Below are positions 190 to 62,389 of a stretch of 64,000 bases of DNA, one piece after another. The DNA is from Tillus elongatus (Eukaryota; Arthropoda; Insecta; Coleoptera; Cleridae): positions 11,604,225 through 11,668,224 of the forward strand of contig OZ023264.1 in NCBI GenBank assembly GCA_964006375.1, given 5' to 3'. The notes under the pieces were generated by a model. The model did not search any database, was not told the origin of the DNA, and was given only the letters and a program-made list of their open reading frames with translations. The position numbers and the translations under genes are program-made. Each line of letters opens with the position of its first letter. Position 1 is the stretch's first letter.

Positions 190-460
190 TCCATAGGAAA
201 GAAATGGGCCAGGGCTGACAATTTACAAAATTGTTAGTTGGTTGTACACAGTCTCTATTTTATAACATTTTGTGTTATTTAGAGCTGACGTGACAACATA
301 CATCTCACAATGTTTTAGGATGCTGGCTGCCATAGACGTATTACTTTGTAGGTGTACTGTAATTAATATACCGTACTCACGAGCTCTAATTGGAGCGAAA
401 CCGGTCTGCGGTTCTAATTGTGGTGAGAATAAATGTAGCCTTACATCACTCTATATGTTT
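190..460 (+). repeat. Diverged monomer of the hammerhead repeat family
   Basis: This stretch is colinear with parts of the 307 bp unit found at 19300-20253. Shared segments include the 'gggccagggctgacaattt' block near 206, the 'ttgttagttggttgta' block near 230, and the hammerhead-like region at 371-420. It appears as one circularly permuted, mutated unit rather than a tandem array. Between about 295 and 360 it carries sequence not seen in the 19.8 kb copies but partly shared with the 43.0 kb copy. No protein function is expected. Confidence 0.6.
371..420 (+). ncRNA. Decayed hammerhead ribozyme motif
   Basis: The parts of a type I hammerhead are in order: CCGTA (371-375), a core heptamer at 376-382, a stem II hairpin at 383-396, GAAA (397-400), the CCGGTC block (401-406) and TGCGG (407-411). 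The core reads CTCACGA instead of CTGAAGA. The invariant G5 is therefore lost and this copy is expected to be inactive. The outer part of stem I is also eroded. Confidence 0.5.
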
Positions 461-556
461 TGTAAACACATAAAAAAGCGGTCCTTCATTAGAAGCTGCC
501 ATTTTGCTCCTTTTCATCCCCATCCTCGTATAAAGCTGTATAAATGAAAATGATTG

Positions 557-582
557 CTCTCTCTCTCTCTCTCTCTCTCTCT
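557..582. repeat. (CT)n microsatellite
   Basis: Uninterrupted CT dinucleotide run of about 26 bp. Confidence 0.95.
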
Positions 583-583
583 A

Positions 584-1882
584 TGGTTGACGTTTTTATC
601 GGAAAACTGCTCTTTTTAAATCTGATTATGGAGCATCGTTAGTGGTAGCGATGCTGTCTGATGGGACTGATTGAAGTGGAAGAGATATTAATACGTTGGT
701 GGCAAGAGGCGGAAACCTGCTGGGGATAATCAAGGGACGACATCTCTCGCTAAATATGTACGAATGCGCCGCGTGCTCCAGCTGATGAATACCACTAATT
801 ACACTAATTAATACGTATGTTCAGGATGTGCTGTTTAAATATCATGTTATCGCCTCAGTCAAATTACACCCCACTGAAAATTTCATACAAAATGTTTAAT
901 ATTTTGTAATTTGATTTGCCTCGGTATGAAATGTTCATTTAGAATTCGCAGACTGGAAGATACATATGTAGCAAATCTGATTACTGAAAGGCAACATAAT
1001 ATATGGAATTCCATATTCAAAACATGGCTACATAGAAAGTTACAAACGCTGGAAGAGAACTATATTGAAAATAAACAGAATATTTACATATGAAAATAAA
1101 TTTGGCCATATTGTGCTATATTAAAGTTCAGTCATTTGGCAAATTTTTAATTTCCTGCCATCAACAATTCTATCGTCGTAATTGCTGACAAACGATTTAA
1201 ACGGTTCTTGGGATTTTTGTGGTCGAGATTTCTTGATTGCTAGCTCGGGTAGTATGTTTTATGCGTGTTATTTGTATTGTTTGGTTTTCGTTGATGTGTG
1301 ACTTATATCTGTAGTATGAATTGATCTACGCATGGTAATTATCTACTTTGTTTCTCAGGAATTGGACTTTAACCAATTAAGTAGTTTCAATTAATGTCTT
1401 TCAGATTTTATTTTTAATTTGAAAAGATAAAACTCCAAATTTTGTGAACCAAATCACTTAACATTTACGGCAGAGGTTTATTTATACCATTTCTAAATAC
1501 ATGTAAACTCTCATTCAAATTACTCTAAAATTTACAGAAATACAGCATATTTAAAAATATTTTTGTATATTTTTCAGAGAAAAAAATGTTCGTTATAGCT
1601 GATTTACGAAACCGTTCGCGGGATTAACACAGTGAAGATATGTGCCAAGTTTCGATCAAATCAGTAGAGCCTTTTTTGAGTTGTTGCTCGTAAACACACA
1701 GTGGCCTACTTATTTTTTTAGATAAGCGTCGTTTTTTAAAAATTTGACATATGAAAATAGTTTTAGTAGGCCGTGATCGAATGGTATAGGAGTTTTTCAT
1801 CTTATATATTTTGATCTTTTGTTCATCAAAATCGAATAACAAATACAAGAAGTACAGGGGTGTCTCCATATCAAATGGGCCA

Positions 1883-1885
<3 letters not shown>
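584..1885. other. No recognised gene
   Basis: AT-rich sequence with only short open frames and no family resemblance that I can see. The last 30 bp before the (TA)n array end in 'gggccacacta', which looks like the terminus of a TA-target inverted-repeat element. I did not find its partner end. Confidence 0.5.

Positions 1886-1976
<91 letters not shown>
1886..1976. repeat. (TA)n array
   Basis: About 45 TA units without interruption. On the left it abuts a possible transposon terminus; on the right it abuts unassigned sequence. Confidence 0.95.
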
Positions 1977-1979
<3 letters not shown>

Positions 1980-3265
1980 AACGGTTGTGTTTTATTCACC
2001 ACCGTGACTCCTTTACTGACATGAGGAAAACATCTGAGGAAGCTTAAATAATAGCAGGAGATTTTATCTCTGAAAGGCAATTCAAGTTTTGGTTTCGAAA
2101 TTATTGATTGAAAATTCGCTAATAATTTTTACCATCGTAGTGTACTGAATTCCTTTTATATACGTTGAAATTAAAATATCAAGGGGCATAATATTCACCT
2201 TGAGGAGAAGGATAGTTGTTATTTTACAATTTCCCTGTAAAATACAGGCCTACGTCATGCTGATGTAATAGAAGACGGTTGAAGACCACGAACCCCCGGC
2301 TTAGGTCTCCGCGCTCAGGGAAAAATAGATCCTACGCTCTCTGCCTCCCTCACACACATGGAGCTAGATGAGTGATTAATAAGGGACAAAAGAACATGCT
2401 CGAACGAACGTTAGAGAAAACGCGCCAAACTAGCTGAGATCGGGACGCGTCAATGATGCATCAAAGAGAGTTCTACGCCGACTACCTTCGAAGCAATATC
2501 TCAACTAAAGTGTGGAGCTTTTTATCGGACAAAAAAAAATTAAAATATTAACTTGCGCGGTTAATATCGACTAGTGTAGTTGTCTGTAAGTGTTACAGGT
2601 ATTTTCTTTTCGATTTAAGCGAGAATTAATATCCCGTTCGCGAATTAAGTAGTTTGAACAGTGAATCCTTTGTGTCCTATGCAGTGAAAGTCGTTCAACA
2701 TGGCTTCTTGTGAATAAGTTCAGTTTCCTATAGCAGATTTTCAACCTTAGTCTCCGAAGCAAATTGGTTTTCTTGTCTGATATTCCCGTATACACTCAGG
2801 TATATCTTTGGTCGCAGAAATCTCAAGTGAAATACTTCCCACTGTTTCTTCTTAAGTGTATCAAGCTTCAGCTCCAGGTCGGCCTGACCTCTTTATAGTA
2901 CATAGTCGTACAATTTATTTGGTCGTCACCCACGAAGATGTTTTCCATCACTTACTGATTTTTCTCTTGGGAGACACTAAGCGCCTATGGTGAGCGCCGA
3001 ATGCTGATCTCATCATATGCAGTCTCCGCAATCAATCAACAGGTGAATTTGGACCTTTCAGATCTTAGGTGTAGGTCCAGAAATTCGACTGCCCGACATG
3101 TAAGTCATTTTCAGTTTTCTGTGTGTGAACATTGAAACTAAACAGATATAACCTTCCTACGTCAGTTAAATCTTTCATTAACTTGCAGCTTAAACTTTAA
3201 TTCAGTCAAAATTAAAACCATATTCAGTGAGATTGTCGAGAACTATAAATATGTTTTGTATTTTG
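1977..3265. other. No recognised gene
   Basis: Mixed-composition sequence with a somewhat more GC-balanced block at 2260-2480. Open frames are short. I see no domain, RNA gene or repeat family that I recognise. Confidence 0.4.
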
Positions 3266-3268
3266 TCT

Positions 3269-3560
3269 TAATGTACTCTGAAGAATGATGTGTATAAATC
3301 CGATCCACCACAAAATATCAATGAATAATTACGAAACAGAATCACGGAAGCTATAAATCATATTAACCAAAACACCCTCACCAGAGTTTGCAGGCATGTT
3401 TTAAAAAGGTGTATAAAGTGCATTGAACAAAATGGTGGCCATATTGAACAATTTTCTATTAAGTATATTTTTAAGTTTATATTTTATTATTTGTTGAGTT
3501 CCGTTTCTAATTGTGTTGTTTTGTGGAGTTTAAGTGATTGCCGGGTTTCGTTATTAAACT
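3269..3560 (+). pseudogene. Mariner-type transposase C-terminal relic
   Basis: Conceptual translation gives a C-terminal mariner-like segment: 'TLKNDVYKSDPPQNINE', a stop, then 'LRNRITEAINHINQNTLTRV' and a tail with 'RCIKCIEQNGGHIEQF'. The same family recurs on the minus strand at 56226-56456 (TLKNDVYKFDPPQNINELRNR), and its 3' tail recurs at 53320-53465. The catalytic core is missing upstream, so this is a 5'-truncated dead copy. The 3' flank after 3430 matches the 53.4 kb copy closely, which helps define the element's 3' region. Confidence 0.7.

Positions 3561-5975: not shown

Positions 5976-6063
<88 letters not shown>
5976..6063. repeat. (TA)n array
   Basis: About 44 TA units, lying exactly between the H1 3' flank and the truncated 5' edge of a Penelope-like element. 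Confidence 0.95.
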
Positions 6064-17993: not shown

Positions 17994-18277
17994 TGTGTCC
18001 AAGATAACGAGGGCCATTATATGGATCTGCAAAACGATAGCAGATACAGACTTGGTTAAATGGGAGTAAAGTTGCGCACTCAAAAGCCCAACAAAATGGC
18101 GGTTAGATATCTCCGAACTTTTGTGTTTTTGAGATACTTTGAAAAATTTGGATTTTTCGATTTTACATGTTATTTTCTTCTGTTCCTAATGGTCGACTTA
18201 GACCAATACCGACGACACTTCTTTACAGCAACTTTTCATTTTCTTTAGCGTAGCATTGTTGGTTTTTAAATTTGACG

Positions 18278-18751
18278 TTTCCTTTTTGCGGGTCCATAAT
18301 CAACTTTTTTAAAAATACGTCCCTTATTTTCTGATATCATATTTTGAAAGCCCCTTTTATTCCAAATTCAGCGATGTGTCACACGTTGTATTAAGGCAAT
18401 AATTTAATAAACTGAAAATAAAAAGACAAAAGTAAGTTTTGGGAAATACATTGATGTAACAATAGCCGTATTTGGATTGACAGTAACATTAATTTTTGCC
18501 ACACTAGTTTCTTGTTTCCTTTTTGCGGGTCCATCATCAACTTTTTTAAAAATACGGCCCTTATTTTCTGATATCATATTCTGAAAGCTCTTTTTATTCG
18601 GAATTAAGCGATGTGTCACACGTTATAGTGAGGCAATAATTTAATAAACTGAATATAAAAAGACAAAAGTAAGTTTTGGAAAATACATTGATGTAACAAT
18701 AGCCGTATTTGGATTGACAGTAACATACATTTTGCCACACTAGTTTCTTGT
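18278..18751 (+). repeat. 237 bp tandem duplication
   Basis: Two head-to-tail copies, 18278-18514 and 18515-18751, both beginning 'tttcctttttgcgggtcc' and both ending 'cacactagtttcttg', with scattered differences. The duplication lies in the left inverted-repeat arm of the 5.2 kb mariner; the right arm carries only the part that pairs with one copy. Confidence 0.85.
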
Positions 18752-18792
18752 TTAATTTATTGTATAATAAGTAGTAACTGTTTCCAGTAAAT

Positions 18793-19299
18793 ATGTTTTC
18801 TAACGAAAAAAATTTGACATGTTGGCATGTTTCATTTCATCCAACCGTAACTGTTCTGTTGCGGAGCGTATGTATTTGCAGAAATATCCGGAAAGAAGAC
18901 AGCCAAGTAAAAGGACTTATAGCAAATTAGTGATAAACCTTAAAGCATATGGTTCTTTTGAATAACCTGTAGTTTCTCGGCAAATGTTTAGCAATGAGGA
19001 AGTAGTACATAATGTTTGGTTAGCAGTTACTGAGGATCCCGGTACATCAGTCCTGCGGATTGAACGAAACGTTGGTATATCAAAATCAACGAAACATTTT
19101 ATTTGACGAAAACAAAAGTTACATCTGTAAAAGTACAGAATTTCTCAAGGACTCAGACCAGGTGATTAAGAACGACGTCGCGCATTCTGTGAGTGGTACA
19201 CAAGAAAATTCCAGGACAATTTTAATTTTCCATGTCAAATAATATAGTCTGATGAAAGAAAGCATGATTACGCATAATGATATTTTCAATAGAAGAAAT
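18793..19299 (+). pseudogene. Mariner transposase, N-terminal and central part
   Basis: ATG at 18793 starts a frame that must shift early. The homologous frame reads 'NRNCSVAERMYLQKYPERRQ' and 'PSKRTYSKLVINLKAYGSFE', the first HTH, followed after a stop by 'MFSNEEVVHNVWLAVTEDPG' and 'TSVLRIERNVGISKSTKH', the second HTH. The section around 19230-19260 contains the first catalytic region ('SDES'). The frame is cut at 19299 by the hammerhead array, and the codons resume at 20254. It is inactive. Confidence 0.75.
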
Positions 19300-19491
19300 T
19301 AAGTGAGTGGCGAACGTGTCGCCACCTAGTTCGGAACCAAGTACTATGTTGTCACGCCCGCTCCAAATAATACAGAGTATTAAAAATAGAGACGGTATAC
19401 AACTAACTAACAATTTAAAAAATTGTTAGCCCTGGCCCATTTCTACCCCAATATAGGGACAAAGTATGTAAGACTAGATGCATTCTCGCAA

Positions 19492-19552
19492 CAATTAGAA
19501 CCGTAGACCGGTTTCGCTCTCATTAGAGCTCTTCAGTACGGCATACTAATTG
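19492..19552 (-). ncRNA. Type I hammerhead ribozyme, minus copy
   Basis: Read on the minus strand: outer stem I CAATTAG, internal loop TATG, inner stem I CCGTA, core CTGAAGA, stem II GCTCT-AATG-AGAGC, GAAA, self-complementary stem III ACCGGT, cleavage base C (plus position 19506), then TACGG, TT and CTAATTG closing stem I. All invariant core positions are present. Cleavage is predicted between plus positions 19506 and 19505. Confidence 0.8.
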
Positions 19553-19862
19553 CAGCAAAAATGCACCAAAAATAACACGGCTATCGTATAGCCAGTCTTA
19601 AAACACTAAGTGAGTGGCGAACGTGTCGCCACCTAGTTCGGAACCAAGTACTATGTTGTCACGCCCGCTCCAAATAATACAGAGTATTAAAAATAGAGAC
19701 GGTATACAACTAACTAACAATTTAAAAAATTGTTAGCCCTGGCCCATTTCTACCCCAATATAGGGACAAAGTATGTAAGACTAGATGCATTCTCGCAACA
19801 ATTAGAACCGTAGACCGGTTTCGCTATACGATAGCCGTGTTATTTTTGGTGCATTTTTGCTG

Positions 19863-19923
19863 CAATTAGTATGCCGTACTGAAGAGCTCTAATGAGAGCG
19901 AAACCGGTCTACGGTTCTAATTG
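19863..19923 (+). ncRNA. Type I hammerhead ribozyme, plus copy 1
   Basis: Outer stem I 19863-19869 pairs with 19917-19923 and inner stem I 19874-19878 pairs with 19910-19914. The internal loops lie at 19870-19873 and 19915-19916. Core CTGAAGA is at 19879-19885, stem II with a 4-base loop at 19886-19899, GAAA at 19900-19903, stem III ACCGGT at 19903-19908, and C17 at 19909 within a GTC triplet. Stem III has no loop of its own, so efficient cleavage would need two ribozymes pairing, as in dimeric hammerheads of newt and insect satellites. Confidence 0.85.
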
Positions 19924-20169
19924 TTGCGAGAATGCATCTAGTCTTACATACTTTGTCCCTATATTGGGGTAGAAATGGGCCAGGGCTAACAATTTTTTAA
20001 ATTGTTAGTTAGTTGTATACCGTCTCTATTTTTAATACTCTGTATTATTTGGAGCGGGCGTGACAACATAGTACTTGGTTCCGAACTAGGTGGCGACACG
20101 TTCGCCACTCACTTAGTGTTTTAAGACTGGCTATACGATAGCCGTGTTATTTTTGGTGCATTTTTGCTG

Positions 20170-20230
20170 CAATTAGTATGCCGTACTGAAGAGCTCTATT
20201 GAGAGCGAAACCGGTCTACGGTTCTAATTG
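20170..20230 (+). ncRNA. Type I hammerhead ribozyme, plus copy 2
   Basis: Identical to the copy 307 bp upstream except that the stem II loop is ATTG instead of AATG. Core CTGAAGA is at 20186-20192, GAAA at 20207-20210, and the predicted cleavage base is C20216. Cleavage at both plus copies of a transcript would release a 307-nucleotide RNA. Confidence 0.85.
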
Positions 20231-20253
20231 TTGCGAGAATGCATCTAGTCTTA

Positions 20254-20365
20254 AATAGAAGAAATGTTCATTATTGGTCTGAAACCAATCTACGCTCAAA
20301 TAAAACATCGATGCATCAACACCGTTTTGCTTTCAATATGTGGGCTGGTATATTCGGTACCATTC
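20254..20365 (+). pseudogene. Mariner transposase, middle fragment
   Basis: After the hammerhead array and the repeated 12 bp, the transposase frame resumes: 'NRRNVHYWSETNLRSNKT', then 'MHQHRFAFNMWAGIFGT'. The latter corresponds to the 'KLNVWTGIFGD' block of the 11.9 kb mariner. It is cut at about 20365 by the RTE LINE. Confidence 0.75.
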
Positions 20366-23179: not shown

Positions 23180-23282
<103 letters not shown>

Positions 23283-23800: not shown

Positions 23801-24411
23801 CAAAGAGCAATAAAATTATTACAATGATTATTTAAAATCAATAGCATTGATGAGCCATCGATGAACATATAACAAAAATCACCCGGTCGAATAAAAAACA
23901 TCCAATTCAAACTTGAAATAAGAATCTTCGTTATCCCAGAGACTTTAAGAATGTGGCTTCAGTAACTACCTATGTATACATAAATCAGTTTAAAAACTGA
24001 CATTCTGAGTCGACACCGCATAAATTGCAGTAGGATTGATATCGGACATTGCAATTATCTAATTCTAGTTAGGTACTTTAATTGATTATCTTTGCTAAAG
24101 CTTCTAGATAGCACCTAATTGTTGAAAATATACTGTAATAACGATGTGTGATAATAACTTATTCTAAATATTTAATATATTGTCTAGATATTGTCGATTT
24201 CTTATTAAAACTTTAGTGGTATTGTCAAAATGGACCACAGTTTCGTCATATCTTATACATAAATAGCTGACAGTAGCATCAATACAGTTCGAGGTGGTTC
24301 TATTGTCTCATCAGGAAAAATAAAATAAATGAAAGATACTTAAGCTAAGAATGTTCAAAAAGTGTTGTTTGCAGGCATTTTACTGGTCGGTTTTCAGACA
24401 TATAATCGTGA

Positions 24412-24474
24412 AAACATACTACTTGGTTCCGCAACTAGGTGACGGCACGTCCACCACTCACTTAGCGACATATG
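24412..24474 (+). repeat. Fragment of the hammerhead repeat unit
   Basis: About 60 bp ('actacttggttccgcaacta' to 'ccactcacttag') align with the 'tacttggttccgaactaggt' section of the 307 bp unit. The hammerhead part is not included. Confidence 0.7.
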
Positions 24475-25165: not shown

Positions 25166-27789
25166 CAGTGGCAGCTCGTGGTCAAATACGAAGGGGGTTC
25201 ATAAAATGAAGAGCATATAATATCAGAACATGAAGTGCTGCTCATGATGTTGAAAATGCGCCGCAGGTGAAAATTTTTAATATTTTCAAGGTCACGCGTT
25301 TTCAGAAGAAACATTTAGATACTCGTAGCATTTAATAACACAATAAATAAAAAACTTACGTTTACTTATACAGGAAATCCATTCGTCTATGCTTTGAATT
25401 AGCAAACACATCAATAACACGATTGTTGAAGTCTGGAATTGAAGCAATTAATTCTTTTTTCATACTTAATATTGATAATGAATTTAGTCTTTCTTGTACC
25501 ATGGTGTTCCTCAGAAAAGTCTTCACTCCTTTAAGAGTTGAAAAACAACACTCACTTTCAACTGTTGTCATATGAATCGTACAAATAAGTTTTAACAACA
25601 AAACACTTTCACTAAAACAGTCAAGTAAGTTTCGGTCTTTAAATAATTGTAGAATAACTAAGCAACTCGCTGCCCCTCGAAAATCTTCTCTACTGTATAT
25701 AACTAATAGTTCACTTTTCAATTTAGCTTTGTCGAAAAAGTCATATGTTTTTGTTACACTATCAACCTCTACAGTGGGGAAGTTGTTTTCATATTCACGG
25801 AATTTACCAGGAAAAAAGTTTGGATGCTAAAAGATGGCCGTTAAATTCAAATCGGTCCTTGGCCTGATTAATTAGCACATCACATACTTCCTTCGATTGG
25901 GCAGAAAATGACAAGTCATTCGGTCTACGCCTATTTGGTGGTGAACTGGGAGAATCGGATGTACGTATTTTGGTGATCGCTTTTTCAAAATTATTCACAA
26001 AGCTATTGATTTTGATAGCATCCAGAGTTCGAGACTGAAAATCATTAAAAAGAATTTCATACTGAGGCATGATTTTACCAAAAAAGTGAGCCAATATTTA
26101 AAATGGTCATTGTTTAAATAGCCCAATCACATTTCAGCTTCGTTATCTGTATTATAATCATTTCTTGCAGAGTCTAAAATACATTCCAGGCATTCCTTTA
26201 AAAGTTCTGCATTTTCGTAAACATTTCTTACCGTTCGAGTGTTATAATTCCATCTGGTGGGCGGCGCTGCTGGAATTCTCTTTTTCACAATACTCTGTAA
26301 TACCTCCGATCGCTTTGGCGATCGCGAAAAGAAGGTAGGAAATGCATGTAAATTTGCGAAAAAATTAGATGTATTTCTATTGACAGACACGCTTTTTTGT
26401 AAAATTAAATTGAACTGATGGGCATATCAGTGTATAAAATACGCATATGGATAGTCATTTTTTATAATACTTTGTACGCCTCCCACTTTCCCTGACATAA
26501 CGGCTGCTCCGTCATAACTTTGACCTACTAACTGATTAGGCAAAATATTAAGCTCAGTTAATTCTTTTTTATTTCAATCGCAATGTCTTTGGCAATATAT
26601 AACGCAGGATTTAGAAATTTCCAAAATCGCTCATGGATGTGATCGTTTCGTTCATATTTCAAAATTAACACAAGTTGCTGATGGGTAGAAACATCCGTCG
26701 TTTCATCAGCCCGGATGGCTACAAAGCGAGTCTCTAAAATTTGTTTTTTTTTTATTTCTTCCTGATAAACTACGAGCATAGCATCTAGTAAATCATTCTG
26801 AACCGATTTTAAAGTTCGCTTAAAAACATTACTCCCTTCCAAATGCTCTTTCATTGCCACATCTATTTCCGCCACAAAATCGATGAGCCCCCTGTATATA
26901 CCGTGATTTAAACTGCCAGAAGATTCGTCGTGCCCATCTAAGGCGAGTTCAAAAGCACCACAAAAGTTAATACAGTCGATAAGTCGTGATAATACATACC
27001 GGTTTTTTGATACTTGTTCATTGAAGTTTTTAATCGACTTTTGATATGCAGAATCCAAAAACTGTCGAATGTCCACATTACCAATATCGGAGAGATTTAG
27101 TTCATTCTTCATATGAACTTGGGAAGATGCTTTTTTGTTTTTGCCGGCAAATGTGACAAATCCGTAACCCCTGTGTTTGTCCACTCAACACTTACATTAG
27201 GATGACCGGCGAAAATAAGGTACACTCTTGTGCCAGCTGTAGTTCTGGGCGAGGTGGACCCTTTATCTTTATTTCAAAACGATTTTGAAAATTATTCGAG
27301 TTTTCTTTAATACATTCCATCGAATACGACTCCATTGTTTACATATTTTAATTAACACGTAACAGGAGACAAGACGCGACGGGCTAAAGCAGGCGATTGT
27401 CGGGTACCCGAGCCGACGTAGATCGACTTTTCCTCCTTCTTGTGCCCTGCACCTAAACGCGGTAAGATGTGTGTATTATGACTTCTGTTTCACGCGTCCG
27501 TTGCTCTTGCTTGCTCACACAGAGTACCGCTCTCGCGGTATGTTCAGGATCCAACTTGAACCGAAAAAGTTGGTAAAGTCGTCAGCGACAAGACAGCAAT
27601 TTAAATATTTTCTATATGTTACGGGTTGTTTTGTATGTAACTATGTAGGTACCGGTAAAAAGGTAGTATATTATATGATAATTATCATTTATATTATAAA
27701 TGTTGAAAGGATAAAATTATAATGGTGTAGGTAGTTCAATTTTTAAGGGGGTTCATTGCACAAATGCACCTACAGTAAAACCGCCACTG
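25166..27789 (-). mobile_element. hAT transposon with perfect 8 bp target duplication
   Basis: The element begins CAGTGGCAG (25166) and ends CGCCACTG (27789), short imperfect inverted repeats of hAT style. It is bracketed by CTCGCAAC at 25158-25165 and 27790-27797, a perfect 8 bp duplication typical of hAT. Length is 2624 bp. The transposase lies on the minus strand and is broken. Confidence 0.9.
25362..27184 (-). pseudogene. hAT transposase (DUF4371/ZMYM-like), broken
   Basis: From 27184 downward: an N-terminal segment with 'FLDSAYQKSIKNFNEQVSKN' and 'FCGAFELALDGHDESS' is followed by 'RFVAIRADETTDVSTHQQLV', the region with the first catalytic Asp. Next come 'QLVGQSYDGAAVMSGKVGGV' (second Asp) and 'APPTRWNYNTRTV'. 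The C-terminal dimerisation segment 'MTTVESECCFSTLKGVKTFL' contains the conserved Glu-Cys-Cys-Phe-Ser block. A stop near 26560 and frame changes near 26100 and 25760 break it. The family performs cut-and-paste transposition in the nucleus; this copy is not expected to be active. Confidence 0.85.
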
Positions 27790-32299: not shown

Positions 32300-34275
32300 C
32301 CGAGGAGGTACCACCACATACAACAAGGGGTCGGTGAAGTCCCAACGGACGTTTCCGGTTCTGGTGTATGAGTTGGTTTCCCTTATAAGCAAAAATGATG
32401 ATGGCTCCTCTTTGTAAAAAAGATTCCGGAGGTAAAATACCCCTCCATTCGGATCTCTGGGAGAAGGGTGTACAGGGGGTGCCAACATCAAGATTTAACA
32501 TAAACTTTTCGAATATATGTGGCCTAAATTCTAACCTGAACTCAGTCCACCATTTCCTCCAGGCTAACAGGCCCCAACTCATCTTCCTCACCGAAACCCA
32601 AATCAGTGCCAAAACAGCCACTAATCACCTTAATTTCCCGGGGTATGAGCTCCTTACTTCCTTTAAATTGCATGGAGGTGTGTGCGCATACGTCCGTAGC
32701 AATCTATCCTGCACCAGACTCCCCAATTTAGAAGCTGGAAGAAAAGATATACTATGGATAAGACTCTTTCTCAGGGCTGCAACTAAATTCATCTGTTGCA
32801 TTTACCGGTCACCTTCTGACAACAACTTTGTCCAGCTCTGTGACTACCTTTCTAAAAAAACCGACTGTCTGATTTCTGAATATCCTTCCTCCAAGGTCAC
32901 TGTTCTTGGTGACTTCAATGTCCATAATAAGGAATGGCTAGGATCTTCAAAAACCAATCCACAAGGGAGAGCAGCGAAGGCCTTTGCAGTCAGCAATTCT
33001 TTAGCCAATATGGTTCAGCAACCTACTCACTTTCCTTGCATCCCAACACACAGCTCAAATCCCTTGGATCTCCTTCTTACTACAAAACCTGAATGCTATA
33101 AGATATCAGTCACCGCCCCCTTGGTGGCTCAGACCACGGCATGGTCACTGCTTCCTGCGCAATGTAATCCGAGGTCACACAGTCATCACACACACGTATC
33201 GTTTGGCACTACAACTCCGCAAACTGGGACGAAATGCGGGATTACTTTTCCTTATTTCCATGGGCGTCTGTCTGCTTCTCTCATCCTGACCCCTGCGATA
33301 TCTCACAAAACGTCACCGAAATTATCCAAGCTGGCATGGAATTATTTATTCCACGTACACAGAAAACATCTGCAGCCACTCAAAAGCCCTGGTTCTCTAA
33401 ATCCTGTGACAAGGCCAGACTTGAAAAGGTCAAAGCTTACAAAAAGCTTCTACACAATCCCAGTCAAGAAAACTGTCAAGCATTTAACGACACAAAAAAC
33501 CGCTATGTCCGCAGTCTTTCTGAGGCAAAAAAACTCGTTCAATAACTACATCAAAAACAAAATCCTCTTAAGTTCCAACGGCGGCAAACCCTTCTGGACT
33601 CTTGCTAAATCTATTGGGAATAATTTCTGCAAGAGCAGGTTCCCATCTCTTGTCTCAGCGGATGAAATTGTTTCTACCGCCCTAGGCAAGGCTGAACTTT
33701 TTGCTTCGTTGTTCGCCGGCAATTCTACTCTCAACCCACCTCCAAATGTTCAACCTCCAATAGTCCCCAATGCCGCGCATAAAATGACGGATATTATTTT
33801 CAAAACTAAAAAGGTAACAAAGATGCTCTCTTAATACCAGGAAAGCCTCTGGCCTTGACGAGATCCCAGCAATTGTTTTCAAAAAATGCGCACCAGAACT
33901 TGCTCCTGTCCTGACACGTCTGTTTCAGATATCTTATAATAAAGGCATATTCCCTAGTAACTGGAAAACCCTCGAGTACAACCCATCCCCAAGAAAGGAT
34001 TAAAAGCGCTTCCTAGCAACTACAGGCCTTCTTCTCTTCTTTCAGTCGTCTCTAAAGTGATGGAAAAGTATATAAACACCGAATACCTAAAATTTCTTGA
34101 AAAACACAGTCCAATCCACGACAGGCAGTATGGATTCCGTCAGCGCAGATCGACTGCCGACCTCCTTTCCTTTGTCACCCATTCTTGGAACAAGTCTATG
34201 AAACTACACGGTGAATCGCAGATTCGCGCTCTAGACATACCAAAGCATTCGACCAGGTCTGACACGAAGCGCTGA
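32300..34275 (+). pseudogene. Jockey/CR1-type LINE: endonuclease and 5' half of RT
   Basis: The AP endonuclease comes first: 'RFNINFSNICGLNSNLNSV', 'QLIFLTETQIS' (Glu), 'ICCIYRSPSDNNFVQL', 'VTVLGDFNVHNKEWLGSS' (Asp/Asn). The 'GSDHGMVTASC' block (catalytic His) lies in a shifted frame near 33130. A linker follows ('YFSLFPWASVCFSHPDP', 'KPWFSKSCDKARL'), ending in a stop at 33543. RT starts near 33840 ('NTRKASGLDEIPAIVFKKC'), then 'DRQYGFRQRRSTADLLSFV', and stops at about 34275, before the catalytic Asp-Asp. The longest open stretch is 479 codons but crosses frames. A second fragment of the same family is at 52515-53055. Confidence 0.85.
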
Positions 34276-37894: not shown

Positions 37895-38449
37895 CAGAGT
37901 GTCCAAAAAAATTCTTGAAGTTTTCAACGAGATATTGCAAAAATCTCGCGATTTTCAAATTGGAACCCCTTTTTTTTATAAGACTGTCGTGTTAATCTCA
38001 AAGAATCACTGATTATTTGAGCTTAACACGATAGTTTCATAAAAAAGGGGGGTATACAGAGTGTCAAAAAAAATTCTTGAAGTTTTCAACGAGATATTGC
38101 AAAAATCTCGCGATTTTCAAATTGGAACCCCTTTTTTTTTATAAGACTGTCGTGTTAAGCTCAAAGAATCACTGATTATTTGAGCTTAACACGATAGTCT
38201 TATAAAAAAGGGGGGTTCCAATTTGAAAATCTCGAGATTTTTGCAATTTCTCATTGAAAACTTCAAGAATTTTTTTTTGACACTCTGTATACCCCCCTTT
38301 TTTATGAAACTATCGTGTTAAGCTCAAATAATCAGTGATTCTTTGAGATTAACACGATAGTCTTATAAAAAAAGGGGGTTCCAATTTGAAAATCGCGAGA
38401 TTTTTGCAATTTCTCATTGCAAATTTCAAGATTTTTTTTGGACACTCTG
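37895..38449. mobile_element. Middle palindromic TA-target element
   Basis: Begins CAGAGTGTCCAAAAAAATTC and ends with the inverse ('tttggacactctg'), flanked by TA at 37893-37894 and 38450-38451. It sits at the exact centre of the outer palindrome. Each arm holds an additional hairpin built on 'gtcgtgttaatctcaaag'. It is interrupted at its own centre ('ggggggta…tacccccc') by a third copy. Confidence 0.85.
38057..38287. mobile_element. Inner palindromic element, same family as the middle one
   Basis: 231 bp element with termini CAGAGTGTC…GACACTCTG, flanked by TA (38055-38056 and 38288-38289). It contains one internal hairpin ('gtcgtgttaagctcaaag' and inverse). It is a copy of the family that hosts it, inserted at the host's central TA. 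Confidence 0.85.
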
Positions 38450-39190
38450 TATACTCTATCGTTAGTCTCGATGTGGAAATAGATGAAGTGAAATATCTTT
38501 CAAGAAATTCTAAAAATCGTAACGAACCATGTTCTTATTATAAAAATATCGGTATCTTTATGACTGGCCGTAAATGTCAAATTTTATCTTAAAGTCTAAA
38601 TATCTTCTGGACGGTTGACGATAGGTATAAAACATTATTTACAAAAAGTATTCAAAATGTATTGTAGAATCCGAAACAGCAATAAAATATAGGATGTTCT
38701 ATTTAAAATAAGCGAATTGACATCTACTTCCGGTATAACCGGAGGTGCCGCCATCTTGAAAATATTTTTAACCTGTGGCCCCCCAACGACTTTAGTGCAA
38801 TATCCAATTTTCACGTTTTTCCTATTGATAGTTTTCGCTAAATCGATCGTGGGACCTCCCGGTGGACCACCCTGTATTGTTTTTAATTTTAAACAATTTC
38901 GTTCATATTAGACTCATACTACTTTTTCTAAATGTCGATTTAAAAATAGCAATTCAGCCTATTTCGAAAACTCATTTCTGCATTACTGGAATAATGATAC
39001 TGTTCTAATATTGTCAACAAATTAAATCGACTAGAGATGCCAACATTTACCACTTCGCTACAGGCTCTTAGAAGCATTAGAAACAGGCAACATTAATTGT
39101 GGAGATCACCTTTGAATCCTTGCGTTATTTTCAGCAATATCTTTCAACTACACTGACAGATACCTTATGTACCTGCCTGACAGCGCTCGA

Positions 39191-40561
39191 TCACCTGCCA
39201 GTGTCAATCTCTGTCAGATCTCTGCCCTTGGTTTCGGGTACACAACATACAACAAAACACAGACCACAGACAGATATAGCTGCGTATAACCAGAAAGCTC
39301 CATATAGACCTAGTAATTCCTGGAAATCTACGAAGGTCTTAACACCAACGAATGCACATAGATAACTGAAAGCTGTAGCAAAAGCGGTACCTAAACCGCG
39401 ATGTTCTAAAGAGAATAGTTCAGTGACCAGCAACCAAGAAATAGGGCTTATTCCTAACGAAAAGGCCACAGTGAACACTAGGGCACATAGCAGAGGGATC
39501 CAGTCTAAATTTGGAACGTTTTTTGGATGTGCGTCTTCGTAGTATGCGAAAGATCCAAAGGAAGCTAACGCTAATGACATCATTACACTAGAAGCTACTA
39601 AAAGCGGCAGCCTTCCAGCACTGTCTACCAGTAAACCTGAAAGTAACGATGAGAGAAGCTGCACGATACCAACCGCAACAGCTGCTCCGTGAGGATTTGT
39701 ACCTCCAAACGTTTCTTTAAATACACTGACAACATAAAAGTTAAAAGCATTAGCTCCTGAAAAGCGCTGAAAAAACATTAGGCCACATGCTATCATTGTC
39801 GGAGTTCTCAAGTTTCTGAGAATAAGCTTTGGATTTGGTGCTACTTGTCTTGTCAGCACGTGAGCTTGAAGAAGCGCTAGTTCTAATCTCAAGTCAGCGC
39901 TTTCGCCTCGAAGCCAACGCAGAGCCTCTTCCGCTTCGACATCTCTACCTCTCAGCACTAACCAACCTGGACTTTCTGGTACCCTCCACATGGCTATACA
40001 CATAGCTGCAGGTGCCAGAGAAATCAGACCAGCTAACTGTCTCCAGTCCAAGAAGGCTCCTGCTGCGAAGGCTACAAGAACCCCAGCATGCCCTGCTATC
40101 TTAAGTAAAGCACTTAACCCACCTCTGATACATGGCGCTGCTATTTCGCTGACGTACACCTGAGCTGCTAGCTGGACAATGGCCACCAGGAAGCCGCTAA
40201 GGAAGGCGGAGAGACACATGACTTCCACACTTACGGAAAATACTGTGAGGATCCAGCAGAGAGACAATGGTACACCAGCGATGAGGAGAGTGCGCCTTCT
40301 ACCCCAGCGTACTGCTGCACCTCCTAGTGGTGCTCCGAAGAGGGCTCCAAGCAGGGAGAGGCTGGCTAACCAGGATGCGGCTTGACCTGTAACGGGAAAG
40401 GCGTCGGCGTCTCGTTGCTGGAGGGAGGCAATGGCTGGAGAACTGTAGCCCTTGCCCAGTCCTGAGGCTAAAGGACCCAAGGATACTGCGAGGGAGGCGA
40501 GGACCTGCCCCAGGTACTCGGGTTTACGGGTAACAAGCAGCTGACCGCCGGGTCGAGACAC
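39191..40561 (-). CDS. MFS sugar transporter (Tret1-like), 3' exon
   Basis: This exon encodes 456 residues and a stop (39191-39193): almost an entire 12-helix major-facilitator sugar porter, predicted to move trehalose or other sugars across the plasma membrane. Signature blocks in order: 'GYSSPAIASLQ' (after helix 1), 'VRWGRRRTLLIAG' (loop 2-3 motif), 'VYVSEIAAPCIRGGLSAL' (helix 4-5), 'VPESPGWLVLRGR' (PESPR-type), 'FFQRFSGANAFNFYVV' (QQxSGxNA-type, helix 7), 'DSAGRLPLL', and 'VPETKGRDLTEID' (PETKG-type end). The exon begins at 40561 after a good acceptor (T-rich tract, CAG); the first codon GTG is in phase 0. Sequence upstream of 40561 in the same frame is intron. Only a short N-terminus is missing, in an exon not identified here. 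No frameshifts are seen. Substrate is inferred from family only. Confidence 0.92.
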   Translation of the reverse strand: MSRPGGQLLVTRKPEYLGQVLASLAVSLGPLASGLGKGYSSPAIASLQQRDADAFPVTGQAASWLASLSLLGALFGAPLGGAAVRWGRRRTLLIAGVPLSLCWILTVFSVSVEVMCLSAFLSGFLVAIVQLAAQVYVSEIAAPCIRGGLSALLKIAGHAGVLVAFAAGAFLDWRQLAGLISLAPAAMCIAMWRVPESPGWLVLRGRDVEAEEALRWLRGESADLRLELALLQAHVLTRQVAPNPKLILRNLRTPTMIACGLMFFQRFSGANAFNFYVVSVFKETFGGTNPHGAAVAVGIVQLLSSLLSGLLVDSAGRLPLLVASSVMMSLALASFGSFAYYEDAHPKNVPNLDWIPLLCALVFTVAFSLGISPISWLLVTELFSLEHRGLGTAFATAFSYLCAFVGVKTFVDFQELLGLYGAFWLYAAISVCGLCFVVCCVPETKGRDLTEIDTGR

Positions 40562-43370
40562 CTGAAAAAAAATATACAATAATGAAAAAAGCTTGGATAT
40601 ACCAAGGGTGTTATGGTAAACAGTAAATTCGGTAGAGATTATAATCATTGTAGTATAGTGTGATGTACCAATTTTCATCAAAATAGCTTTATTTTTAGTA
40701 GATTTTCTGAAAAAGAAATCTAAAACTTTCCCGGAAAGAGTGGCTTGATTACGTGGAAAAGAAATGTATCCAATCAATTTACACAAAGAATACATTTTCC
40801 AAGATATAAATATTCGCAAAAAAATTTTAGGCCAAAATTGTCAAGTCTTATAGGAATTCTTGCTTCAAAATTTTTTTGACGAAAAAAAGTTCTTACCAAA
40901 AGGGGGTCGCACTGTAATAAATTTGACAAACACTGGTCTAAGTGATTTATAAAAAAAATGTTCGGGACACAGCAAGTGAGTTATGGTAGTGAATTTTCAT
41001 AAGAATTATATAGTGATTTAGCCTTATATTTAAAGTTATAAAACATTACTTTATTTAATTAGGAACGCTAAAAAATAGGGTAAAAAAGGGCAAGCAAAAG
41101 CATGACCTCTAACGTAAATATTTATACACTAATTTCGATACAAAACTTAAACAAAACATTCATAAACAGGAAATATACTCAACGAAGAATAGACTAGAAA
41201 GCAGAACATAAAAAATCCCTATGGTTCATGCATTGAGGGTGATTGTATACATGCAGAAGGGGAAGAAAAACCCCCAGGATAAAGAGGGTTCCTACCCCCT
41301 CACACAAAAATACGGGGGGTTCTCCTTCCCCTTGTCCATGCATACAACTACCTTCAAAGCACAAAACACAAGAAAAGTTCTTGGGAGCAACCCCCAAGAA
41401 AGTTACTGGACTTCAGTGAATATGGGTGTTGTGCGGGGCAGACAGGGTTTAAAGGATGTATTGCTACAAAATGTAAAAAACGCATCTTTTTAAAGTCCTA
41501 AATGTTTTTTTTTTCCATTTCCCGCCCAGATTTTTTCCCCGCCCAGCACCCCTATTCGTTCTTGGTACCTTAACTTTCTTGGGAGTTGTTTGCAATAAAT
41601 TTGCTTTGTGATTTGTGCATCAAAGGGGGCTTATCAGCATATTTCCCGAAAAAACCTAAAAACCCTCCTTGTAGTAAACTAAATTTACCGAAATTACATT
41701 CCACGTTGTCGCCTATAATGTATTTTTCACATAATATCGAATACAGCAGTAAAGTAAATAAATTCACTTTCTGTTTCACTCCTTTTTTATTTTTATATTA
41801 CATATATAAGCACAAGATAAGTAAGCATAATAAAGGGGGCCCTTAATTAACATTGGGGCTTCACAAACCTAACAACAGGGAAGACATTTTAATCGTGTTA
41901 AGAGCCATACGTTTGATTTCATGTCACAGTGGTATCCTGATCATAAAAAAATACTTCTTACTGTATGCACACAAAAATTAGCAAAACATGTTTTTAAAAT
42001 TTAATAAAAAAAAACCAACGGTTTCACGACATTATTTTAAACAAACCAATATCAATACGTTTCGCGTCGATTTCGCAATTCGTGTATAAACCTAGCTTTT
42101 GTACTACACTGAAATCCAGTCGAACGCAAGCAGGCAGCTTGTAAATTAAGCTCGATAGGCTTGGACGGTTAACAAACGTAGGTATGTCTAATTTTAAGCG
42201 GGAGACTGTACCTGTTTCAGACATACAATATAAGAAATACAGAAATACACTTTAGAGTGCTATTTATTAAAAAATATTGACTAACTAACCTGCAAAATCA
42301 TCGATAATAAAAACTAAGGATTTAGTAACTCATCTATCAGCACCTTTCTCATGTTGTAAGCAAGTTTTGATACTTGCAAATAACATTGACGCTGGTGGCA
42401 CTAAATTTCGCCCAACGAACCTAATAAATATTGTCTTCCGCACGGAGACAAACTATAAAATATTCTGATACTGTTACTATTAGTACATAATGGATTAGTT
42501 ATTTCTTCCGGTTATATAATAACAATAATGTCTATGGGGTCCTGTTTTCGTGGCTCAATTAACAAACATTAAAAACCTAGTGTTAACACTGCTCTTAGAA
42601 CATGATTTACTGATATACTGATTTTCTATTTTACGCAAAATTGTATTGTATTAACTCGCAATTTTCATTTATGACCATCGTCCAATATTTATTTTCAATA
42701 CTTAATATTTATATCAATATTTTAAATAAGTCAGTTATAAACGCTACACAACAAGCGCAGGCGTTAAAGCGTAGAAATAATGCGATTGTCAAGCTTGCAA
42801 GCAACTTGCTGCTTTTAAAAACCAGCAGTATCATTTAACGTCAACCAGCTATCAGGCCGCTGGTAGTCGTATGCTAGCGCTTTTGGACGGAAACATTGTC
42901 CCGGTATTGAAACAGAAATGAGCCAGGGCTGACAATTGACAAAGTTGTTAGTTGGTTGTACACAGTCTCTATCTATAACATTTTGTGTTAACTAGAGCAG
43001 TTGTGACGACATATTACCCGGTTCCGCACCGAGATGGCGTCCCTGTCGTACATTTCACAATGTTATACGCTGACATCTTGCAATTATTGTAACTTCCATT
43101 GTTTAGATTTTTATCTACGATTTATTTAAATAGCATAGCAGTACATATATCGTCATCTGTCCTTGTCCAACATTGTAGATATTGCATTACAGAATTTGAA
43201 GTGATGTTGAGGATTATTTTAATATTTATTTCAAATATCTTTATTTTCCTTTCATCAAAAGACTGGAAAATTGATACACAACCACGTCTGTCCATGTTCT
43301 TTTAAGTTGAAATTTTCTTGTCAGTCACTTAAACAATTTGGGAGATATTGCGTTTTAAAAAATATATTTT
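40562..43370. other. Upstream intron/intergenic DNA with foldback repeats
   Basis: Starts as the intron preceding the transporter exon. A scrap at 40950-40990 matches the large dispersed repeat seen at 45-51 kb ('gggacacagcaagtgagtta'). 41215-41370 forms an inverted repeat ('gattgtatacatgcag' against 'catgcatacaacta'). Related sequence occurs at 41570-41620 and 56620-56720. No other coding exon is recognised. Confidence 0.5.
42905..43065 (+). repeat. Partial, diverged hammerhead repeat unit
   Basis: Shares 'gagccagggctgacaattg', 'ttgttagttggttgtacac' and 'cggttccgcaccgagatggc' with the 307 bp family, and 'ttcacaatgtta' with the copy at 190-460. The hammerhead section is absent. Confidence 0.65.
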
Positions 43371-46023: not shown

Positions 46024-47880
46024 TCACTGAAATATTTTTTTTAAACCGGCTTTAAAAGTTCTTATGTTTCCAGTGGACTTTACACTTTCCGGAAGCAAAT
46101 TGTACAAAACACTACCCGCATACACAGGGGATTTCTTGTACGCCATTCTTTGAAAATGGTTTAAATTAATGTGACTGCAGTGCCTAGTGGAATACGAATG
46201 ATTGTCTGAATGTCTTGGCAACATATGTTTTTTGCTATGAATGAAACTCAGTACCTTATAAAGGTAAATGTCTGCCAAGGTCTTAACTTTCTTTTGCTTA
46301 AAAAGTTCTCGGCATGACTCAAAGTTGTGCATATCAAAAACTACCCTCAGTATTCTCTTCTGAAGCACAAAAACCCTGTTCACATCTATGGACTGACCCC
46401 AGACAACAATGCCGTATGACAGCAATGGATACACCTCTAAATAGTAGACAGAAAGCAAATATGCGTCACTTAGAGAGTTCTTAAGATTATATATCATAAA
46501 ATACGCCGACTTAAACCTGCCACAGACGTAATTAACATGCGACTTCCATGACAAGTGCTGATCAACCGCGACCCCAAGGAACCTTCCCTTTGTAGCACAG
46601 CAGTGCATACCATCCTCAAGCTGCAGAATGAGAGGCAGTCGGTGGTAACTCCTGAACTCTACGAACGATGTTTTATCATGGTTTATGATTAGGTGGTTTG
46701 CTTTGCACCACTCACCAAACTGTCGCATTAAGGTGTTTACCTTTTGACTTACCTCGTCACCATCATGACCAAACACAGCCACGGTTGTGTCGTCCGCGTA
46801 CATGAACACCCTACCCACCTTTATGTAGTCGGGCAGGTCATTCACATACAAAACAAACAGCAACGGACCCAAAATACTACCCTGCGGAGTGCCCAGATTT
46901 ATCTCATATGAATCCGAAAAAGTGCCCCCAACCGAAACCACCATCCGTCTATCATTTAAAAATGACAAAAACCAGTCATTTGCTGGTCCACGTATACCCA
47001 GGCATTGCAATTTTTCGCTTACATAACCCGGATTAAGCGTGTCAAACGCGCGCGATAGGCCGAACATGACAGCTACCACGTGCATACCCCTATCTAAATC
47101 CTCGTGAAGATGTTGTATAAAATCACTAGTAGCTTCCTCCGTAGATAAACCACTCCGGAAACCATATTGACACTTGGTAACTAAACTATGTTTTCGTAGG
47201 AATATTTCAATTCTATCGGCCATCGCTTTCTCCATTATCTTAGAAAGCACGCTCAATATGGATATTTGCCTATAGTTTAGGATATTAAAACTATCTCCCC
47301 TTTTAGCGACCGGAACTACTTTTGCTTTCTTCAATTGCATTAGAAAACTGCCGCAAGTTATTGACAAATTCAATATGTCACAGATATAAGATGCAATTAT
47401 CTTCGAGTACTGCTTTATAACCGAGATGTGCACCTCGTCAATACCAGTAGACTTTTTGTTTTTCAGTTTTTTATAACGTTTTCAATCTCCAGAGAAGTAA
47501 ACGGGTACAAAAAAAAAACGATTCCCTATTTACCAATGAAGTTGTACACAAATTGCTGTTAGAGTTGTTAAAATGCAATCGTACCTGGTTTTGGGCGTCC
47601 TGTGAGAAAAAGTTACCAAATAGATTCCCTATAATTTTTGGATCTTTGACTATTTCATCGTTATGTTTAATTATTATTGACTTACTTTTGTTAATTTTCT
47701 TCCCAGATTTATAATTAACAATTGACCAAAGCGTTCTTGTTTTGTTATCTGAATTTTGTATCTAGTTATGATAATAGTCCTGTTTTTCCTGCTGTATTTT
47801 AATGCTAAGTTGTTTTTTGTATTTTTTGTAATCATTTGTTACCTGGTCATCATTACAATTATTTTTAATTAAGTTGAGAG
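46024..47880 (-). pseudogene. Jockey/CR1-type LINE reverse transcriptase, nearly open
   Basis: The best-preserved RT of the window: 469 codons open from 47433 to the stop at 46024. Blocks in order: 'KAKVVPVAKRGDSFNILNYR', 'CQYGFRSGLSTEEATSDFI', 'VVAVMFGLSRAFDTLN' (first Asp position altered: MFGLSRAFD), 'INLGTPQGSILGPLLFVLY', 'VFMYADDTTVAVFG' (catalytic Asp-Asp), 'NHDKTSFVEF', 'RFLGVAVDQHLSWKSHV', 'YPLLSYGIVVWG', 'GSVLYNLLPESVKS'. Upstream coding continues after a one-base shift in an A-run near 47465 ('SIIIKHNDEIVKDPKIIGNL', back to 'KKYKKQLSIKIQQEKQDYY'). It is cut exactly at a (TA)n array. It would copy its RNA at a nicked target; endonuclease and 5' region are missing. Confidence 0.88.
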
Positions 47881-58189: not shown

Positions 58190-59251
58190 TTACCGACTGA
58201 CGAAGCCGAAATTACGAGACAGGACATTGCCAGGATATTACGTTCTGCTAATCCTCCACCTTCCAACATTTCTTTTCACGAACGACAGTCAATCAGGGAC
58301 TTAAACCGAAACACAGAAATTATAATCCTATCAGCAGACAAAGGCAACGCTACAGTCATACTCAACAAAACAGACTACATACAAAAGATGGACAATATAC
58401 TAAACAGCACAGACTACAAAGAAATCCCTAACGACCCTACAACTTGAAAAGAAAACCAAAACTCGCATCAACAACTCCCAACTCAGTCCTGACCTCAAAA
58501 AAAAAACTAATCCCCCGCGAAAAATCATCACGCACCCTAGAAAATACCGTTTCCAAAAAATCCATAAGCCTGATATTACCCTTCGCCCTATCGTAAGTGC
58601 CCACTGTTCACCCACACAAAAACTTGCAAAACATCTAGCCAAAACTCTCAACCATTAGTAGAAAACGCTACATCCTATGTCAAAAACTCCACCCATTTCA
58701 TTGACCTTCTTCAAAACAACACCACATCTCAAAACGACATCCTAGTTAGCTTTGATATAGCTTTCTTATTCACTAATATACCTCTATCTGAAACCCTTGA
58801 CATTCTCAAAAATAAACACAACATTTCCCGCGATACCTTAGCTCTTCTAGAACACTGCACATCTAACACTTATTTCCTTTTTCAAAACAAATTTTGCAAA
58901 CAAGTGCGAGGTGCTCCAATGGGTTCACCACTCTCTCCTACATTGGCTAACATTTTCATGGAAAACTTCGAGACACAAGCCCTCAATTCATCCCACCTTA
59001 AACCAACCTGTTGGTTAAGATATGTTGACGACATTTTCGCTGTCTGGCCACACGGTAAAGAATCTCTGGACGATTTTCTTTCTTACCTTAATAACATCAA
59101 CCCCCAAATCCAGTTTACCATGGAAATACAAAATTTCTTTGCTTCCTTAGATGTTCGCATCACTATAAACCCAGTCAGAGGATTTTCTGTCACTGTTTAT
59201 CGTAACCAACCCACACCAACGCCCAAACTCACCATCATTCATGGCAACTAA
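58190..59251 (+). pseudogene. PLE reverse transcriptase, frameshifted
   Basis: Blocks: 'PRKYRFQKIHKPDITLRPIV', 'QKLAKHLAKTL', 'NDILVSFDIAFLFTNIPLSE' (first catalytic Asp), 'RGAPMGSPLSPTLANIFMEN', 'TCWLRYVDDIFAVWPHG' (Tyr-Val-Asp-Asp), 'FFASLDVRITINPVRGFSVT'. Only the last 115 codons (58904-59251) are open. PLE reverse transcriptases are relatives of telomerase and copy element RNA at the target. Inactive here because of frameshifts. Confidence 0.85.

Positions 59252-60507: not shown

Positions 60508-62389
<1,882 letters not shown>

Follow-up and report, generated by a model that had tools for sequence, protein, structure and literature searches.

The satellites of newts, cave crickets and schistosomes consist of repeated units that carry type I hammerhead ribozymes, some of which act as dimers. 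As far as is known, their sequences are unrelated to the 307-bp unit of the beetle Tillus elongatus described here, and their insertion anatomy is undescribed in the accessible part of PMC8490949. Metazoan non-LTR retrozymes, in the sections of PMC7229834 available, resemble the beetle unit in their type I hammerhead, their repeated, non-coding units of 170–400 nt with low G+C, their duplications of more than 4 bp, their rod-like circular fold and the presence of Penelope-like elements (PLEs) in the genome. Those of amphibians have a short stem III that requires dimers (PMC7229834), and metazoan retrozymes offer, according to the portion of PMC7761336 at hand, no conserved motif from which the mobilising retrotransposon could be deduced. 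Plant LTR retrozymes are likewise non-autonomous, with hammerheads and a proposed circular RNA, but they differ in having type III hammerheads located in LTRs, a size of 600–800 nt and 4-bp duplications (PMC7229834, same sections).

Hammerhead-bearing PLEs share with the beetle element head-to-head arms and two reverse transcriptase (RT) start sites, and they show an extension of one arm only and, close to the start sites, a hammerhead whose stem III is palindromic (available parts of PMC3846280 and PMC11167929). Most PLE inserts have a head-to-head arrangement in which one inverted end bears a 31-bp tail, and self-priming on an antisense template was proposed as the cause of their inversion (PMC3846280). 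A purified PLE protein cut both strands and extended them, starting at two adjacent internal RNA sites; hammerhead mutants left insertion in vitro unaffected, and both strands used on average the same start sites (PMC11167929). The beetle element differs from metazoan retrozymes in its head-to-head arms with two fixed start sites, which go unmentioned in the available sections of PMC7229834, and from PLEs in being non-coding and in the distance between its start sites, which is 138/169 nt on the circle compared to about 30–35 nt in PLEs.

Analysis of the window, the whole 64,000-nt stretch of T. elongatus DNA, revealed an insertion enclosed by an exact 12-bp target duplication, AATAGAAGAAAT, so that the limits of 19300–20253 proposed by the first-pass annotation were exact (Table 1). 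The proposed unit length of 307 bp was borne out, and the units are numbered here q1–q307 from the first base past the predicted cleavage site (window 19910). The description as an array held in so far as the units are repeated; a plain tandem array was ruled out, because the insertion is made of two multi-unit arms inverted head to head. The first two units lie on the strand opposite to the last two, which the annotation had missed, and this inversion is the most informative feature of the insertion. The 5′ ends of the arms meet with a 3-nt overlap at the junction. Among the frames of at least 120 aa listed, none within 19300–20253 encoded an RT or GIY-YIG domain, and G+C was 36% and 41% in 2-kb windows enclosing the insertion. 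The element has no LTR, and its duplication exceeds 4 bp both here and in 25 two-armed loci elsewhere in the genome (9–16 bp); the type I hammerhead and the 12-bp duplication set it apart from plant LTR retrozymes. Its identification as a retrozyme thus agreed with published metazoan non-LTR retrozymes in hammerhead type, unit size, low G+C, repeats, duplication and presence of PLEs. An older copy of the unit (70% identical, plus strand) was located at 200–446 of the window, with its 3′ end again at site A (q40) and a hammerhead at 358–428 (RF02275 23.8 bits, E 0.18), and a short piece at 24407–24465 also matched the unit. Directly upstream of the insertion lie two copies of a 237-bp unit (18277–18753).

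Table 1. Features of the insertion, with positions in the window and unit positions (q).
Feature	Position	Strand	Remarks
Left target site duplication	19288..19299	.	AATAGAAGAAAT, exact repeat
Left arm	19300..19825	-	1.7 units; 5′ end q295, 3′ end q206 (site B) adjoining duplication
Complete type I hammerhead	19484..19554	-	predicted cleavage between 19506 and 19505; RF02275 30.4 bits
Hammerhead 3′ remnant, q295–q307	19813..19825	-	truncated at inversion junction; arm start q295
Right arm	19823..20253	+	1.4 units; 5′ end q221, 3′ end q37 (site A) adjoining duplication
Complete type I hammerhead	19861..19931	+	predicted cleavage between 19909 and 19910; RF02275 30.4 bits
A side (q31–48) of predicted helix between start sites A and B	19940..19957	+	circular fold, pair counts
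B side (q202–219) of A/B helix	20111..20128	+	circular fold, pair counts
Complete type I hammerhead	20168..20238	+	predicted cleavage between 20216 and 20217; RF02275 27.1 bits
Right target site duplication	20254..20265	.	AATAGAAGAAAT, exact repeat

Three of the four units carried a complete hammerhead, as annotated, while the fourth, at the arm junction, lacks its 5′ side. Reading of each complete copy gave CTGAAGA, a stem II of 5 bp, GAA, the self-complementary ACCGGT and C, with stem I made up of 5 + 7 bp; each is of type I with a palindromic, loop-less stem III. The two plus-strand copies differ by a single base, in the loop of stem II, and their predicted cleavage positions are spaced by one unit, both as previously noted. 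The covariance-model match above threshold, the lack of which the annotation had named as a refutation, was not obtained, since no Rfam family reached its gathering score anywhere in the window; the core is nevertheless complete. The scores of Hammerhead_HH9 (RF02275; Table 1) compare with a gathering score of 52 and correspond to E-values of 2.4e-5 to 2.7e-4 for a 1151-base stretch and of 0.0014 to 0.015 for the whole window, with alignments that lack the model's stem III loop. Being loop-less, stem III should not close in a single hammerhead, and the motif should act as a dimer. Co-folding of two hammerheads gained 4 kcal/mol beyond two monomers and yielded a plain extended duplex, not a double-hammerhead fold, a modelled energy that says little on dimeric action. 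The other proposed check, conservation of the core relative to the rest of the unit, gave a partial answer: among aligned units the hammerhead stems were less variable (0.009–0.013) than the remainder (0.057), and the twelve core positions were intact in 112 of 135 laps (0.83; control mean 0.49, sd 0.23, maximum 0.94), which points to a moderate conservation that is suggestive, not decisive. No covariation was found in the hammerhead stems of the alignment, because these stems hardly vary.

The 18-mer GAAACCGGTCTACGGTTC from the hammerhead, allowing at most 2 mismatches, occurred at 16,166 + 16,281 = 32,447 places in the 1.72-Gb genome (30 contigs), a number that counts units and not insertions, and the reversed control at 2 + 3 = 5, which excludes chance. 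In total, 53 loci were analyzed: the window, 27 of 29 other loci similar to the window unit (two overlapping ones were dropped), the 20 clusters of the 18-mer that come first on contig C1 (L061–L080, in genome order), and five clusters picked for having both orientations (L081–L085). Both arm orientations were present in 13 of the 20 clusters taken in genome order. Among the first 100 places listed for the 18-mer, all exact, neighbors less than 700 bp apart were oriented minus then plus in 15 cases, plus then minus in none, and alike in 26 (13 plus-plus and 13 minus-minus); one plus-minus pair appeared when the range was widened to 1.6 kb. In L083, an extra minus piece lies beyond the plus arm, and since the duplication there resembles the unit itself, it looks as if an older copy had been the target.

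Direct repeats scoring at least 9 were found at the edges of 28 of 52 loci (L004 left out), compared to 6 of 300 mismatched random flank pairs. Both orientations were present in 25 of these 28 loci, and all 25 had one A and one B end, although L077, whose repeat does not abut the arms, and L075, with an interrupted right arm ending at q220, were less clean. The duplications of the 25 loci measured 12 bp (ten loci), 13 bp (eight), 11 bp (three), 15 bp (two), 16 bp (one) and 9 bp (one), some of them perhaps lengthened by chance matches to the element. The remaining 24 of the 52 loci showed no duplication, and 12 of 93 ends departed from the A/B rule; many of these are older copies.

The 3′ ends of the arms fell into two classes, the limits of which were set after the ends had been seen: 45 of 93 were at A (q31–48, centered about q37), 36 at B (q201–220, centered about q206) and 12 elsewhere. 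A uniform spread was rejected for these 3′ ends (0 of 2000 simulations as uneven) and fitted the 94 5′ ends, which were scattered over the unit (449 of 2000). Four of the 94 5′ ends lay within 2 nt of the hammerhead cleavage site, with 1.5 expected, so that run-off at this site is suggestive at most. Thirty-five loci had one minus arm followed by one plus arm, a count that leaves out L023 and L075 with three or more pieces; their outer ends were B/A in 17, A/B in 12, A/A in one (L022) and B/B in none, the other five having an unclassified end (one of them, L004, is cut by the locus edge). If ends are assumed to be independent and equally likely, the probability of at most one like pair among the 30 classified loci is 2.9e-8.

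Two PLE insertions of the same genome had a similar anatomy. Searches returned 14,221 GIY-YIG candidates, of which 150 were scored, all 150 above the cut-off. An open frame of 637 aa that includes RT and GIY-YIG domains was present in one locus (L086), in which no hammerhead was detected. Among the 150 scored places there were three opposite-orientation pairs within 5 kb, all minus then plus, two of which were examined in detail. In the PLE L088, head-to-head arms that are 96% complementary (310–3498) are flanked by an exact duplication of 12 bp, TCTAATTATTGA, and only the right arm is extended, by 34 nt. Its older relative L087 is likewise head to head, with an extension of the left arm only that measures 30 nt as aligned, or about 35 nt if the duplication is 12 bp; this duplication is less certain, as it has mismatches and lies within a tandem satellite (L087 245–388 and 2870–3298), the unit of which measures about 142 bp. 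Both arms of both elements contain CTGAAGA...GAAACGATCGTA, a hammerhead core with palindromic, loop-less stem III, and both insertions have one end of each kind. The two ends of L088 lie 54 and 88 nt past the hammerhead cleavage site; the main start site of an Anolis PLE lies 85–92 nt past it, by the numbers in the available part of PMC11167929.

The suggestion of the first-pass annotation that PLEs move the unit therefore gained support from the head-to-head arms, the two start sites, one per arm, and a 12-bp duplication common to the two PLE insertions, but not from homology between unit and PLE, where only short matches turned up, the best of 13 nt with E 0.075. A start-site motif common to both was set aside: the end of the PLE tail best matched the unit at B, where 11 of 307 windows were as good, and the other three comparisons were unremarkable.

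The sequence itself shows the polarity of the arms, 3′ ends that fall at two discrete sites, 5′ ends that are scattered, the combination of an A with a B end in an insertion, the duplication of target sites and a like anatomy of two PLE insertions. We consider it likely that the insertion in the window is a non-autonomous metazoan retrozyme, whose hammerhead-cut monomers are circularised and copied from both DNA ends, at A on one side and at B on the other, by a Penelope-type enzyme. We infer that the unit is transcribed, that it cleaves itself and becomes circular, that the enzyme is of this type, and that A and B are displayed jointly, paired with each other. A multi-unit RNA would be cut by its hammerheads into 307-nt monomers, the loop-less palindromic stem III (ACCGGU) requiring two hammerhead copies together, and each monomer would be circularised; carrying only one hammerhead, the circle should not readily cut itself open again. 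The Penelope-type reverse transcriptase/endonuclease would then cut the DNA with a stagger of about 12 bp, and copying would be primed from both DNA ends, one at RNA site A and the other at B. Each cDNA would run from a fraction of a unit to many units, and joining of the far cDNA ends would leave two head-to-head arms within one target duplication. The insertion rule, with two start sites, one per arm, followed by two PLE insertions too, seems to be new; it was not found stated in the literature on retrozymes, hammerhead PLEs, twin priming and inverted PLE inserts, a mostly open-access coverage that is no proof of absence. Scars in one beetle genome would thus tie retrozyme mobilisation to the inverted, tailed insertions of PLEs and offer a sharp rule of two start sites, one per DNA end, which statistics can address with tens of thousands of units; a 307-nt RNA would also be a far smaller substrate for the PLE enzyme than a full element.

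Twin priming and target duplications are also known from LINEs: classical twin priming likewise yields arms whose 5′ ends meet, and the range of LINE duplications includes 12–13 bp. LINE fragments (RVT_1 and endonuclease frames) are present in the window. If LINE-type machinery had made these insertions, the second DNA end would have annealed to the RNA at a microhomology, and such random annealing would scatter the start of one arm. Starts at variable internal sites, a feature of LINE twin priming, were not what was observed: A or B was used in both arms at 29 of 35 loci, the two fixed sites accounted for 81 of 93 ends, with one of each in 29 of 30 classified loci, and the PLE insertions of the genome bear the same scar. 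We regard the LINE origin as improbable. Self-priming, by which a single cDNA would fold back at a hairpin and copy itself into the inverted arm, appears slightly less probable again. It was proposed for PLEs, there on an antisense template (available part of PMC3846280), and in L004, L070, L080 and L022 the arms begin at nearly the same unit position with an overlap of 6–25 nt, a few near-symmetric junctions that it may account for. Most two-armed insertions, however, have arm 5′ ends at unrelated positions, and fold-back predicts equal outer ends, whereas 29 of 30 classified loci had different ones; the prediction fits only L022 (A + A), which has no convincing duplication.

The tandem units, about 12 of them in L079, could also be read as an ordinary satellite that multiplied through unequal exchange or segmental duplication, with the hammerhead as a passenger. 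This is very improbable as a general explanation, given that the insertions are short and dispersed, with differing flanking duplications, fixed ends and fixed polarity, and that the hammerhead stems vary less than the rest of the unit. For the sampled two-armed copies it is refuted by the duplications, the separateness of which rules out a satellite without an RNA step.

Under copying of a hammerhead-cut RNA from both DNA ends, the two arms may or may not share a template. Over 13 young insertions, laps of one arm had a pooled divergence of 0.50%, the two arms one of 0.52% and different insertions one of 2.59%, with over half of the lap and arm comparison coming from L079, without which the values were 0.99% for laps and 1.14% across arms. 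L079 comprises about 12 units, four in the left arm and eight in the right, and differs from the window unit by ten variants that occur in every covering segment of both arms, two of which were seen in 1 of 47 and 1 of 32 other insertions. These shared variants make it look like one RNA was copied repeatedly from both sides. A single source for both arms in every insertion was not borne out: in 7 of 13 cases no other young insertion was as close to the arms as they were to each other, while in the other six the difference between arms was as great as that to the nearest other insertion. Consistent differences between arms were found at six positions in L085, the arms of which probably come from two RNA molecules, and at 0 to 3 positions in the other 12 young insertions. 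Taken with L085, the six insertions suggest that arms may stem from different RNA molecules. Circularity of the RNA is favored by these comparisons, yet identical laps would also be expected from a linear multimer of uniform sequence, and linear multimers could be an alternative source of multi-unit arms.

Folded as a circle, the window unit reached -107.5 kcal/mol (z -7.2 against 60 shuffles), and in the predicted structure q31–37 pair with q213–219 and q39–43 with q206–210, so that A faces B. When 40 aligned units were folded as their own circles, the A/B helix was formed with at least 12 of its 14 pairs in 14 units, with 5 to 7 pairs in five and not at all in 21, which comprised 20 copies 81–91% identical to the window unit and one young copy (L007). 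On the alignment, 93.7% of cells pair in the helix. At one pair, U-A is replaced by C-G in 14 rows and by U-G in five, and this single compensatory change, common to related copies, may be taken as moderate evidence for the helix; its columns were more variable (0.078) than the rest (0.057). In single folds of the PLE RNAs of L087 and L088, the start sites were not seen face to face. We propose only tentatively, as a possible and not a probable arrangement, that the RNA has a pseudo-twofold start element, formed by the helix q39–43/q206–210 with small flanking internal loops and with reverse transcription beginning at the 5′ edge of either strand. A Penelope-type dimer might then set one protomer at each start site and at each end of the staggered break, and each complete insertion would have one A and one B end. 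The arms would be rolling copies, often of one circle, and the same rule could explain the one-sided tail of PLEs.

Elsewhere in the window, (TA)n runs were spread over 21 places, most of them 60–140 bp long (e.g., 1886–1976, 5976–6063, 23183–23279 and 62289–62388). Matches to MIR821 and other miRNAs were below gathering score and follow inverted repeats or TA runs. A 163-bp unit that contains a long inverted repeat is present in three copies at 37965–38454. Retroelement (RVT_1, endonuclease) and hAT transposon frames were located at 46027–47481 (minus), 58574–59248 (plus), 32389–33831 (plus) and 25365–25826 (minus). An intronless frame of 549 aa at 39194–40840 (minus) encodes a protein like trehalose/sugar transporters, 80–88% identical to beetle proteins, with a protein of Cryptolaemus montrouzieri as the best match (80% identity over 92% of the query). 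The named matches that rank above the first one from another insect are, as far as is known, all from beetles, in keeping with a beetle as the probable host. In the genome at large, COX1-like sequences (36 matches) were present not just on the short contig C30 but on many contigs of chromosome size, some of them nearly full length, and the chromosomal ones are probably recent nuclear copies of mitochondrial DNA.
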